From NCBI RefSeq assembly GCF_022008365.1, contig NZ_JAIRBA010000003.1, positions 62,001-126,000 on the forward strand: a stretch of 64,000 bases of DNA, in the 5' to 3' direction. The position numbers and the translations under genes are program-made. Below are positions 6,501 to 46,222 of this stretch, one piece after another; position 1 is the first letter of the stretch, and every line of letters begins with the position of its first letter. Under the pieces are notes generated by a model. That model made no database searches. It had not been told where the DNA came from and was given only the letters and a program-made list of their open reading frames with translations. This stretch comes from Aequorivita vitellina. GTDB taxonomy: Bacteria; Bacteroidota; Bacteroidia; Flavobacteriales; Flavobacteriaceae.

Positions 6501-9500
6501 CTAGCTTGCTTTAAGGGTTTTTAATTTATTTTTCAATTTTGCTTCTTTTCTCCAACTGAATAAAACTGGAACTACGAAAAGTGTAATCAAAGCAATCAAC
6601 ATCCCACCAAAACTGGGGATAGCCATTGGTATCATTATATCGCTTCCGCGTCCGGTGGATGTTAAAATTGGAAGCAAGGCCAAAATTGTGGTGGCGGTAG
6701 TCATTAAAGCGGGACGTATTCTTTTTGTACCTGCTTCAACTACCGAAGTACGAATTTCATTCACGTTTTCTGGGTCGTTCTTATCAAAAGTTTGGGTGAG
6801 ATAGGTGGCCATTACCACGCCGTCGTCGGTAGCAATTCCGAAGAGCGCAATAAACCCTACCCAAACGGCAACACTTAAATTGATGGTGTGCATCTGAAAC
6901 ATTTCGCGCAAATTTTCTCCAAAAAAGGTAAAGTTTAAAAACCAATCCTGTCCGTAAAACCAAATCATTAAAAACCCACCCGCAAAAGCTACCGTAATTC
7001 CTGAAAATACAATCAAGGAAGTAGCTACCGAACGGAATTGGAAATAAAGAATCAAAAAGATTATCCCCAGCGCCAAAGGCACGATCACCGAAAGTGTTTT
7101 TTCTGCTCGTATTTGGTTTTCGTAAGTTCCCGTAAAATGATAACTTATCCCTTTTGGCACTGTGAGCTCTCCATTGGCAATCTTTTCTTTGATCAAGGCT
7201 TGGGCATTTTCTACCACATTTACTTCTGCATACCCGTCCAGTTTATCGAATAAAACGTGTCCCAATAAAAAGGTATCCTCGCTATTTATCATCAGCGGTC
7301 CCTGCTCATAGCGCACATCTACAAGTTCGCCCAATGGTACAGGATTACCATTTTCCACGGGTACGTAAATATGTTTTAAATCGTCAGGATTTGCGCGTAG
7401 TTCGCGTGGGTATCGCACCCGCACTTGGTAGCGTTCCCTACCTTCCACGGTTTGAGTGAGTGGCATGCCTCCTACCGCAACCTGCAAGATTTGCTGCACA
7501 TCTTCAATAGAAACGCCGTATCGCGCAAGACGATCTCTATTTATATCAATTAAAAGGTAAGGCTTGCCAACAATGCGGTCTGCAAAAACAGCTTCTACTT
7601 TTACACCTTCGGCCTGCTTTATAATCTCTTCCAATTCTATCCCAAAGGCTTCAATCTTCCGAAGATCTTGCCCTTTCACTTTTATTCCCATTGGCGCGCG
7701 CATTCCTGTTTGTAGCATCACCAACCTTGTTTCAATGGGTTGCAATTTTGGAGCAGAGGTTACGCCAGGGATTTTGGTTACGCGCACGATTTCATTCCAG
7801 ATATCATCGGGAGATTTTATTTCGGGTCTCCAGTTTCTGTAAAATTCGCCGTCGTCATCTTTTATCAAATCCTTTTCTGTCACATCGAGCGCAGTGGAGA
7901 TGGTCTTTCCGGCTTTTCGAGCGTTCTCGACTGCACTTCGACTACGCTCAGCAGAACCGCTCGAACTGACATCGCTATTCGGATTTTCAACCAAACTTCC
8001 GTCTTTAAGTACGAATAACCCATCCTCATTCACCTTAAATCTTTGGCGATTCCCGTCTTTATTCAGCGCGTATTCTGGCTTATATTGAATGATATTTTCA
8101 TACATAGATAGTGGTGCGGGGTCGAGAGCTGATTCTGTCCGACCTGCTTTCCCAACAACGGTTTCAATCTCAGGAATTCCCGCCACGGCCATATCCATTT
8201 GTTGTAGCACGCGTTTATTTTCCTCTACGCCCGAATGGGGCATAGAAGTTGGCATTAGTAGAAAGGAACCTTCATTTAAAGAAGGCATAAATTCCTTGCC
8301 TGTGTTTTGCCAAATTAAAATACCGAAGACCACAATTAGCGTGGGAATAGAAAGGAATAATAGCTTGTTATGAAGTGCCCACCCAAGAATCCGAGTGTAA
8401 TAACGTTGGAACAACCAGAATATGGCTAATAATCCAAAACAGATTAATCCCACAAATAATAAATTCCAGAATATACTTTTATCAACTCCAAGTGGGCGCC
8501 AGAATTCTGCCAATAAAAATACAACGGCCAAAGCTGAAATAAATATGTTTACAATATTGGCACGTTTGTCTGAAAGTATAAGTTTAGCTGAAATTTTGGA
8601 GGCAATCTTTTCATCTTTTAGCAGCCCAGTAATACCGAAACCAATTAGAATAATCCCCAACCAATATCCAAAGACGATTGCTGTAATTCCTAAAAGGACT
8701 AATAACCCATTGATAAGATTAGCAGTTACTTTTCGTAAACTTCTTCTTCGGAAGAAATAAGCGGCAAACGGCGGAATAAGAAAGAGTGCTACCATTAAAG
8801 AAGCGACAATTGCCATTGTTTTAGTAAATGCCAAAGGCCGGAATAATTTTCCCTCCGCGCCAATCATTGTAAATACGGGAATAAAACTAATTATTGTGGT
8901 TAGCACTGCGGTGAGAATGGCGCCCGAAACCTCAGCACTTGCATTATAGACCACTGTGTTAATGGGCTGTTTTAAACCAGTTTCGTTATAACGTACCTCC
9001 TCTTCATCGAGATGCCTTATTATATTTTCGGTGAGGATAATCCCAATATCTACCATGGTTCCAATTGCAATTGCTATTCCGGATAACGCCACAATGTTGG
9101 CGTCTACGTTAAAGAACTTCATTGCAATAAAAACCATTAAGACCGCCACCGGCAAAAGGCCCGAAATAAGTATGGAGGCTCTTAAGTTAAAAACCATCAC
9201 GATTATCACAAAAATCGTGATGAGTATTTCTAAGCTCAATGCTTCATCAAGCGTGTTTAAAGTTTCTTGAATAAGTATAGAACGGTCATAGAATGGAACC
9301 ACAGTAAGTTGCGAAATTGTACCATCTGAAAGTTCTTTTGAAGGTAAACCAGTACTGAGTTCAGCAAGTTTTTCTTTTACGTTGTTTATAACTTCCATTG
9401 GGTTTGCGCCGTAGCGAGCTGTAACAACTCCACCTACAACCTCTGCGCCTTCCTTGTCCAAAATTCCTCTTCGGGGCGCAGGTCCCAAACTTACATTTGC

Positions 9501-10337
9501 AATATCTTTAATTCGTATTGAAGTATAATTTTCTGAGGTAACAACGGCGTCTTCAATATCGGCAACAGATTCTATATATCCCAGACCCCGCACCAAGTAT
9601 TCCACTTGATTAATCTCCATTGTTTGGGCGCCAATGTCTTTATTGCTTTCTTTAACTGCTTTTACAATTTCTGCCAAGCTAACATTGTATTGGCGCATCA
9701 ACTCAGGTTTCACATCAATCTGATACTCCTGCACATACCCTCCAATTGACGCTACTTCAGAAACCCCACTTGCCGAAGAAAGTGCATATTTTACATAGTA
9801 ATCCTGAATGCTCCGCAATTCGTGCAGATCCCAGCCTCCGGTAACATTGCCATCTTTATCGCGGCCTTCCAGCGTGTACCAGTAAACTTGCCCCAGTCCG
9901 GTGGCATCGGGACCCAGAGACGGATTTACTCCTTCGGGAAGCAAGCCGGAAGGTAATGAGTTTAGCTTTTCTAAAATCCGGCTGCGGCTCCAATAGAATT
10001 CTACGTCTTCTTCAAAAATGATGTAGATGCTCGAAAAGCCAAACATTGAAGAACTGCGAATGGTTTTCACACCGGGAATTCCCAGTAGTGAAGTGGTAAG
10101 TGGGTAGCTTATTTGATCTTCAATATCTTGTGGGGAACGACCTTCCCATTGGGTATAGACAATTTGTTGGTTTTCACCAATATCGGGAATGGCATCAACC
10201 GCCACTGGATTGGTAGGTAGAAAACCAGTATCCCAGTTAAAAGGCGCATTTACAACGCCCATACCTACAAATAGCGCGAGCAACAAGACTGCCACCAGCT
10301 TGTTCTCAATAAGAAATTTTATGCCTTTATTTAGCAT
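6501..10337 (-). CDS. CusA/CzcA-family heavy-metal RND efflux pump
   Basis: This 1278-residue inner membrane transporter drives metal ions out of the cell using the proton gradient. The HME-RND features include the N-terminal helix and periplasmic loop with QIVYTQWEGRSPQDIEDQIS, the TM4 proton-relay segment AIGTMVDIGIILTEN, and the Met-containing porter domains. It is longer than the E. coli protein (about 1050). Part of the excess is an extra set of membrane helices near 530-660, seen in Bacteroidota homologs. About 32 further residues (near 789-820) are encoded by palindromic repeat DNA inserted in frame (7879-7971). It starts the pump operon; the HYC_CC_PP gene lies upstream on the same strand. 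Copper or silver is the most likely substrate. Confidence 0.92.
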   Translation of the reverse strand: MLNKGIKFLIENKLVAVLLLALFVGMGVVNAPFNWDTGFLPTNPVAVDAIPDIGENQQIVYTQWEGRSPQDIEDQISYPLTTSLLGIPGVKTIRSSSMFGFSSIYIIFEEDVEFYWSRSRILEKLNSLPSGLLPEGVNPSLGPDATGLGQVYWYTLEGRDKDGNVTGGWDLHELRSIQDYYVKYALSSASGVSEVASIGGYVQEYQIDVKPELMRQYNVSLAEIVKAVKESNKDIGAQTMEINQVEYLVRGLGYIESVADIEDAVVTSENYTSIRIKDIANVSLGPAPRRGILDKEGAEVVGGVVTARYGANPMEVINNVKEKLAELSTGLPSKELSDGTISQLTVVPFYDRSILIQETLNTLDEALSLEILITIFVIIVMVFNLRASILISGLLPVAVLMVFIAMKFFNVDANIVALSGIAIAIGTMVDIGIILTENIIRHLDEEEVRYNETGLKQPINTVVYNASAEVSGAILTAVLTTIISFIPVFTMIGAEGKLFRPLAFTKTMAIVASLMVALFLIPPFAAYFFRRRSLRKVTANLINGLLVLLGITAIVFGYWLGIILIGFGITGLLKDEKIASKISAKLILSDKRANIVNIFISALAVVFLLAEFWRPLGVDKSIFWNLLFVGLICFGLLAIFWLFQRYYTRILGWALHNKLLFLSIPTLIVVFGILIWQNTGKEFMPSLNEGSFLLMPTSMPHSGVEENKRVLQQMDMAVAGIPEIETVVGKAGRTESALDPAPLSMYENIIQYKPEYALNKDGNRQRFKVNEDGLFVLKDGSLVENPNSDVSSSGSAERSRSAVENARKAGKTISTALDVTEKDLIKDDDGEFYRNWRPEIKSPDDIWNEIVRVTKIPGVTSAPKLQPIETRLVMLQTGMRAPMGIKVKGQDLRKIEAFGIELEEIIKQAEGVKVEAVFADRIVGKPYLLIDINRDRLARYGVSIEDVQQILQVAVGGMPLTQTVEGRERYQVRVRYPRELRANPDDLKHIYVPVENGNPVPLGELVDVRYEQGPLMINSEDTFLLGHVLFDKLDGYAEVNVVENAQALIKEKIANGELTVPKGISYHFTGTYENQIRAEKTLSVIVPLALGIIFLILYFQFRSVATSLIVFSGITVAFAGGFLMIWFYGQDWFLNFTFFGENLREMFQMHTINLSVAVWVGFIALFGIATDDGVVMATYLTQTFDKNDPENVNEIRTSVVEAGTKRIRPALMTTATTILALLPILTSTGRGSDIMIPMAIPSFGGMLIALITLFVVPVLFSWRKEAKLKNKLKTLKAS
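7879..7971. repeat. palindromic repeat cluster inside the CusA-like gene
   Basis: Two units lie in the coding region. The first, 7880-7902, reads as a CACATCGAGCGCAGTGGAG-type element. The second, about 7914-7971, is a long imperfect hairpin whose arms are CGAGCGTTCT and AGAACCGCTCG, with CTTCGACTACGCTCAGC between. This core has the same GAGCG...CGAA design as the array at 26471-26634. The whole segment is in frame, has no stop, and adds a Ser/Arg/Ala-rich stretch (SSSGSAERSRSAVENARKA and ISTALDVTEKD) to the protein. Confidence 0.75.
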
Positions 10338-26470: not shown

Positions 26471-26634
26471 TTCGGCTCCGCTCAGCTACCGTAAATTTAG
26501 AGAAGTAGAAATAGGGTCATTGAGCGAAGCCGAAATGCGGTCATTGAGCGAAGCCGAAATGCGGTCATTGAGCGAAGCCGAAATGCGGTCATTGAGCGAA
26601 GCCGAAATGGGGTCATTGAGCGAAGCCGAAATGC
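26471..26634. repeat. tandem array of five 24-base repeats with inverted arm
   Basis: Five head-to-tail units lie at 26515-26538, 26539-26562, 26563-26586, 26587-26610 and 26611-26634. Each begins GGTCATTGAGCGAAGCCGAA; only the fourth differs, at its last base. At 26471-26490, TTCGGCTCCGCTCAGCTACC is a near-complement of one unit in the opposite direction, so the transcript can fold one inverted arm against any of the units. The array fills the btuC-btuD gap. Confidence 0.9.
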
Positions 26635-46198: not shown

Positions 46199-46222
46199 GA
46201 CACTGAGCGAACCCGAAGTGCC
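46199..46222. repeat. single repeat unit with CTGAGCGAACCCGAAGTG core
   Basis: One relic of the GAGCG...CGAA family lies between rpmE2 and its terminator. Its CACT/AGTG ends pair, and the core differs from the 26515 array at the central bases. Confidence 0.5.

Follow-up and report, generated by a model that had tools for sequence, protein, structure and literature searches.

Palindromic REP-like DNA in frame within a loop of a flavobacterial CusA-like efflux pump gene

A CusA-like heavy-metal efflux pump gene of an Aequorivita-type bacterium contains a palindromic segment (7879-7971) which, when all the observations are read jointly, is very probably REP DNA that came in two steps to fill a loop which the pump can dispense with, and is carried there as a tolerated passenger without any specific gain. 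Comparison with related genes shows the first step: in other CusA-like genes of the genus the loop is filled in frame by a head-to-head pair of TGTC-tagged REPs, about 70 bp long. The second step is seen in this lineage, where the loop of the first REP hairpin holds, at its exact place, a 24-bp REP that adds the residues SAERSRSA. The window analyzed, by which we mean the whole stretch of 64,000 nucleotides, lies on contig C131 of a draft assembly totaling 3.63 Mb; its relevant features are collected in Table 1.

Table 1. Positions in the window of the pump gene, the parts of its composite element and the intergenic sister repeats
Feature	Position	Strand	Remarks
CusA-like RND heavy-metal efflux pump gene	6501..10337	-	open frame; phmmer to E. 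coli CusA 3ne5, E 5.6e-194
REPIN-like composite: two convergent TGTC-tagged REP hairpins, third nested in first	7878..7971	-	in-frame peptide VSSSGSAERSRSAVENARKAGKTISTALDVT; two-REP form in L004 and L030, eroded in L008
First REP arm, TGTCA GTTC GAGCG / CAGTCGA GAAC, split by nested REP	7923..7971	-	unsplit TGTCAGTTCGAGCGCAGTCGAGAAC in L030/L110
Nested 24-bp REP GTTCTGCTGAGCGTAGTCGAAGTG, private to this gene	7934..7957	-	core GAGCGTAGTCGA at 7938-7949
Second REP arm, convergent, TGTCA CATC GAGCGCAGTGGA GATG	7878..7902	+	one base off core; perfect core in L004, L030
Sister-repeat cluster, intergenic	26472..26634	.	one inverted copy (core 26472-26483, -) and five tandem 24-bp units GGTCATTGAGCGAAGCCGAAATGC

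The pump gene is intact, a single open frame of 1278 codons (1278 aa), and its product is related to E. coli CusA (PDB 3ne5) over its length. As the original prediction had stated, the segment is in frame and free of stops, and it encodes residues about 789-820; the outer TGTCA/TGACA tags of the composite all but match its ends. E. coli CusA is devoid of nearly the whole surrounding stretch, residues 755 to 835 of the query corresponding to CusA 640 to 642, and the REP lies among the roughly 78 extra residues that separate these two matching parts. The hairpin arms that had been predicted are present: folding of the 93 bases as a single strand gives -18.4 kcal/mol (z -2.05), a value equaled by 5 of 200 shuffled sequences, and this fold energy alone gives the hairpin modest support. 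An AlphaFold model of the periplasmic fragment (residues 678-1080, 44 sequences) had a mean pLDDT of 56.1 and a pTM of 0.36 and was set aside. The genome also encodes a CusA paralog (row L028), which has no REP at the corresponding place.

On the coding strand of the pump gene the order of the elements is TGTCAGTTCGAGCG-GTTCTGCTGAGCGTAGTCGAAGTG-CAGTCGAGAACGCTCGAA...TCTCCACTGCGCTCGATGTGACA; that is, TGTCA-GTTC-GAGCG is followed by the nested unit, by CAGTCGA-GAAC and a spacer, and then by the convergent second hairpin, which closes with TGACA. The nearest relative (L004, 95% identical) has both REP cores and no nested REP, and in A. antarctica (L030) the first hairpin is unsplit and the core of the second is perfect. 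Since both of these genes carry the two-REP form, the base form is a head-to-head REP pair, in which a third REP here sits within the loop of the first. In rows L005, L006 and L020 the first arm alone is still clear. The clean gap of 32 residues that had been anticipated in relatives was consequently not what the alignment contained: with the two-REP segment common to L004 and L030 and eroded in L008, only eight residues are new. Of the other 29 homolog rows (L004-L032), 28 lack these eight, SAERSRSA; the remaining one, L010, has four residues at this place, which can be read from their sequence as an eroded remnant of the nested unit. A 50-bp stretch of the pump composite recurs in the bacterium's own purL at 94% identity and in the same frame. 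The nested unit is also found in G002, within REPs that have another outer stem (CCTC/GAGG), which suggests that hairpin loops themselves may be a target.

The segment belongs to a large dispersed family. Its core, GAGCGNAGTCGA, has 91 exact copies in the 3.63-Mb genome and its reversed pattern has none, a count that bears out the original reading of the segment as a genomic repeat. Thirteen further genomes from the genus each contain between 6 and 125 copies (55 in A. antarctica, G004), and nine from other families contain 0 to 21, controls giving 0-1 per strand in both sets. The 12-mer core was the search term and hence its invariance is not a result. In the 89 copies with full flanks, the four pairs of the 4-bp outer stem (G-T allowed) are kept in 84, 88, 86 and 82 cases, and the stem covaries, with two Watson-Crick types at the first pair and three or more at the others. 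A TGTC tag is located at -9 in 54 of these 89 copies of what we call the A type, and an A follows the tag position in 51. The 25-bp element of the 54 tagged copies never has a stop in four of its six frames, and in the remaining two a stop occurs in 33 and 42 copies (random 25-mers have a stop in about 30-35% per frame); these stop-free frames are a property of one consensus rather than many independent observations. REPs are rarer in genes than chance placement gives: 25 of 92 rows (one copy being counted twice) lie in open stretches of at least 200 codons, versus 177 of 245 random positions at the same loci. Among 14 neighbor pairs within 70 bp, six are head-to-head, one is tail-to-tail and seven, from tandem arrays, are head-to-tail. 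The inverted doublet, the REPIN unit, is formed by the CusA segment and by six other pairs in the genome, most of the 91 copies lying outside such doublets.

Two intergenic repeats of the window had been proposed to have the same design as the pump segment. This is true of the repeats at 26471-26634, which are of a sister type (GAGCGAAGCCGA) with GCCGA where the main type has GTCGA; the one at 46199-46222 fits a looser pattern only. Elsewhere, the locus L184 contains at 7840-8345 an array (computed as tandem repeats) whose units, about 57 bp long, have TGTCAGGGTGAGCGCAGTCGAACCCC and TCTAACGC, and similar arrays were seen in the copy list at L185, L188 and L189.

The host proteins of the copies were named by NCBIfam, Pfam or solved-structure searches of the open frames around the 92 rows. 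Fifteen of the 91 copies are in frame within 13 conserved genes: those of the CusA-like pump, PurL (three copies), MetRS, an oligopeptidase-A-like peptidase, a type I specificity subunit, an alpha-2-macroglobulin, GltX, HemW, a GH92 protein, MnmA, methylmalonyl-CoA mutase, MutL and an M28 peptidase. Not counted among the 15 were copies that precede a likely start codon, one that lies close to the start codon of PaaA (L051), and one in an AAA ATPase (L096) that we judged to be a chance match. With such numbers the pump segment is not the rare, single exaptation that had originally been envisaged; moreover, "exapted" implies a benefit, and nothing here shows one. The 15 copies use the reading frames STAL (6), SAVE (4), ERSR (3) and DCA (2), and never the stop-prone ones. 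All four stem pairs are kept in 12 of them, three in MnmA and M28 and two in GltX, and TGTC occurs within nine bases before the core in five, the other ten being untagged; given these broken pairs and the scarcity of the tag, several in-gene copies are eroded or untagged forms. When compared with solved homologs, the M3 peptidase, HemW and the GH92 protein have extra residues at the place of the REP, and GltX and the mutase show no length gain there; the comparison with solved homologs covered these five proteins.

Empty and filled sites are most readily distinguished in PurL, for which we compared 16 rows, 13 from the same genus and three from other families (L204-L206). Site 2 is empty in these last three and in seven of the 13 same-genus rows (L192, L194, L196, L198-L200, L203); it is filled in the other six. 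In this genome (G000) and in G001 it reads DVTLSAVEGSS, and all 33 of the 33 bases of the insert are alike in the two genomes, which differ at 17.6% outside it. In G011 and G002 site 2 is filled by a GAGCTTGTCGA-type REP and in G003 by one related to it, whereas the palindrome of G012 is of a different kind. Site 1 has a long insert in this genome and a shorter one in G001 and G009. Site 3 carries the nested unit of CusA in the same frame, VSSSGSAERSRS[AT]VEN; it is variable in relatives, and in G013 the REP there has the opposite orientation. A second, unrelated palindrome family (the CCCCTCCTTTGGAGGGG type) is seemingly in frame at purL sites 2 and 3 in L193, L195 to L198, L200 and L201. One or two stop codons were reported within the PurL match of the purL genes of G001, G004, G011 and G024 (L193, L194, L197 and L204).

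Site 1 of MetRS varies as the PurL sites do (22 rows, one of the 23, L249, being too short to use); at its site 2, GCTTCGACAAGCTCAGC, the repeat is present only in this genome and six same-genus rows have other extra residues. MnmA is four residues longer than in 17 of 21 relatives. In two PurL and four MetRS comparisons there were fewer changes inside than outside the inserts, by a margin that is small in some of them.

The loop of the pump itself has a more intricate history. Its aligned stretch comprises 71 residues in the query, 63 in the A-type rows L105, L109 and L110, also 63 in the repeat-less rows L119, L124 and L175, and 57-60 in most other long loops. Because repeat-less rows have loops of like length, the two-REP form lengthens the loop little or not at all. 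The original idea of a REP-like insertion that lengthens a loop thus survives in part: the DNA is REP-like and in frame, and the loop tolerates changes of length, as its absence from CusA attests, but the two-REP form did little to extend it. Among the loops of 80 named homologs, eight come within 3 mismatches of TGTCAGTTCGAGCGCAGTCGAGAAC, a further 11 come within 5 of AATGTCACACTGAGCGCAGTCGAA, and nine are within 1 of the TGTCATTGCGAGC...GGCAATCTC repeat (G type), L149 standing at 6. For comparison, 150-bp stretches drawn at random from these genes (240 for each) were never below 10, 9 and 15 mismatches. Judged by these sequence matches, the pump loop is a REP hot spot at which three different REP-like sequences occur in the 80 named homologs.

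How often these loop types arose was addressed with trees from which the loop was omitted (95 rows, after removal of nine whose cores were identical and six that were partial). The four loop states change 24 times, or 23 in a second run that, unlike the first, counts L005 as type A; the shuffled means are 30.5 and 31.1, none of 200 shuffles was as low, and these counts lump gains and losses. On the starred branches alone, no fewer than 6, 5 and 6 changes are required for the labels A, N and G (7, 4 and 5 with L005 as A), and label N is hardly clustered, with 119 and 109 of 500 shuffles as low. The A-type core is repeated in seven of the eight named genomes searched that host A- or N-type loops (18 copies in G044, 20 in G046, 6 in G048, 40 in G049, 63 in G050, 15 in G051 and 16 in G052); the eighth, G047, which is the genome of L126, has a single exact copy, at the CusA place. 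Where the host has another kind of loop, the counts were 6 and 5 (two genomes). Each of the five G-type hosts searched has the long G-type loop sequence once, and two non-G hosts do not have it. With a looser G-type pattern, G041 gave 10 copies and G042 gave 6, against 0-2 for each of the remaining seven genomes. We therefore did not retain the G-type loop as a dispersed repeat of all its hosts, its repeat nature being backed in G041 and G042 only.

Identical 600-residue cores occur in CusA-like rows from different genera (L154/L155/L156; L157/L171). In the second of these sets, the core of L157 (Winogradskyella) and that of L171 (Aquimarina) are identical and the loop peptides differ, as if the loop alone had been exchanged. 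CusA-like genes thus pass from genus to genus, and this blurs the line between repeated insertion and transfer. Nor did any relative among the CusA homologs have an empty loop of evident ancestral length; REP-less homologs carry other sequence of similar length, and hence gain and replacement are not separable in this loop. Between L003 and L030, 2 of 13 four-fold sites differ in the REP part (counted by eye) and 70% of 420 differ outside it. This likeness of inserts at the DNA level suggests that copying or conversion between repeats may have taken place, though it is not proof of either, since the pairs were picked because both inserts are recognizable.

Y1_Tnp genes number three in this genome and 14 in four of the six relatives searched. 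At none of these 17 loci did the repeat lie on both sides of the Y1-transposase (four repeat patterns; flanks of up to 1.5 kb, shorter at contig ends for this genome's L033 and L035), and the predicted link to a RAYT-type transposase did not appear within these flanks. The only Y1 locus with nearby copies is L034, where both are within the neighboring metG. The A. antarctica genome, a draft of about 70 contigs, has its 55 repeat copies and no Y1_Tnp match. The genes L033 and L035 sit among other short repeats, ACCGATATTTTGTCCCTAACGGGACAT and GAGCGTCCCGCTCGTGCC, which are perhaps these Y1 genes' own families. In G016 (C1:116037-118199; L258, L262, L264), three Y1_Tnp genes with equal scores lie in a row.

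The preferred reading is a passenger REP accommodated in two steps. The repeat spreads genome-wide, as its 91 copies and the empty and filled PurL sites of different species show. It probably moves single-stranded as a hairpin, copied by a putative trans-acting enzyme, or else by recombination between copies. The position, length and frame of the in-gene REPs suggest two reasons for their survival: four of the six frames of the tagged element are stop-free, and an insertion whose length is divisible by three is close to neutral when it falls in a tolerant loop. Most likely, we infer, the pump gains nothing specific from the insert. A more tentative extension, plausible without being the likelier case, is that permissive loops (CusA, PurL sites 2 and 3, MetRS) are standing docking sites for REPs, where later REPs of other families enter the hairpin loop of the first or replace it, and that the peptide has been rewritten repeatedly across the Flavobacteriaceae. 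If this were true, the presence of the nested 50-bp unit in two unrelated genes in the same frame would represent direct gene-to-gene copying of a coding REP.

Several other histories must be weighed against this one. The most serious, which we regard as possible yet doubtful, is that a REP entered the CusA-like gene only once per type and that horizontal transfer and recombination among Flavobacteriaceae produced the scattered pattern. The identical cores shared across genera, in one case with differing loops, agree with such a history, as do the solitary 12-mer of G047, the five hosts that have the long G-type sequence once, and the clustering of loop types on the tree as a whole. It is more difficult to reconcile with the changes forced on the loop-free tree and the poor clustering of label N, with a nested REP that is in the query gene and not in its 95%-identical neighbor, or with the like pattern in the core genes PurL and MetRS. 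A RAYT/TnpA-REP (Y1) transposase, as proposed for GTAG REPs, is an unlikely mover of the family: Y1_Tnp genes are indeed at hand in this genome and most of the relatives searched, and close neighbor copies are more often head-to-head than tail-to-tail, but the 17 loci without repeats on both sides within the flanks covered, the other repeats around L033 and L035, and the copy-rich A. antarctica draft all argue against it.

That the REP-encoded peptide has been kept for a changed pump function or for partner contacts is highly improbable. The greater likeness of the REP part than of the rest, between the distant CusA genes L003 and L030 and in the PurL and MetRS comparisons, can be cited in its favor. 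It is the synonymous sites that are alike, however, as would be expected sooner from repeats copying or converting one another than from selection on the protein, and the comparison is biased toward repeats that can still be recognized. Furthermore, the loop is hypervariable and E. coli CusA does without it. Finally, ordinary coding sequence could resemble the repeat by chance, Ser/Arg/Ala-rich loops being common and the AAA ATPase copy, one of the 91, looking like just such a match; yet an unrelated gene shares 50 bp with the pump segment at 94% identity and in the same frame, and this, together with covarying stems, tags and 91 copies, makes a chance resemblance scarcely credible.

Palindromic elements within proteins have precedents. 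Ogata and Claverie reportedly described Rickettsia palindromic elements (RPE) that lie in frame in many unrelated proteins. The palindromes described here are likewise in frame in unrelated conserved proteins, and in PurL, MetRS and MnmA they are in-frame insertions, as RPEs are, relative to homologs without the insert; the host, however, is a flavobacterium and not an obligate intracellular alphaproteobacterium.

A second precedent is the superfamily of CGTC REPs, which the available part of its description (PMC3733652, 2013) sets beside the GTAG REPs. According to that account, CGTC REPs include RPE-4 and RPE-6 of Rickettsia conorii and the neisserial dRS3, and they are found in five phyla, the Bacteroidetes among them; their unpaired CGTC tag becomes TGTC in many repeats, their stems of 8-9 bp begin with AT and there is a CCA tail, head-to-head dimers prevail, and they apparently have no dedicated transposase (PMC3733652). 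It also reports intragenic REPs, some in frame, with mention of tRNA synthetases and of two Xanthomonas recB genes that have a REP at about the same site. Our family resembles this superfamily, so far as it is described there, in its short stem-loop, the TGTC variant of the tag in most copies, in-frame copies and the lack of a linked transposase in our search, and the G-type loop, TGTC-ATTGC...GCAAT, also starts its stem with AT and ends in GCAAT. The tag fits the CGTC superfamily and the head-to-head dimers may do so, and a Bacteroidetes family listed there could be the same as ours. By that same description there are also differences: the A type has a variable four-bp outer stem around GAGCGNAGTCGA and no AT at its start, a REP is nested in the loop of another inside a gene, and tandem neighbors are as frequent as head-to-head ones. 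REPINs, in the part of PMC3116915 available, are two inverted REPs around a short spacer, found in extragenic space and near RAYTs, with units inserted into or beside existing ones; unlike these, our doublet is in coding DNA and showed no link to a RAYT at the loci searched. No title among the literature matches listed, which mostly lie outside subscription journals, concerned in-frame REPs of Flavobacteriaceae.

The pump segment therefore seems to be no one-off oddity but a passenger of a kind already known from other genomes, met here in a new bacterial group. The in-frame REPs described in the literature available are those of Rickettsia and of other, mostly proteobacterial, hosts; here they are found in core enzymes of a flavobacterial genus (PurL, MetRS, GltX, MnmA). 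As species differ in which sites are filled or empty, the rate, the target choice and the fitness cost of palindromes that encode protein become measurable. For annotation and structure prediction, the peptides SSAVE, ERSRS, STALD or DFAQG in a flavobacterial protein may serve as a warning.
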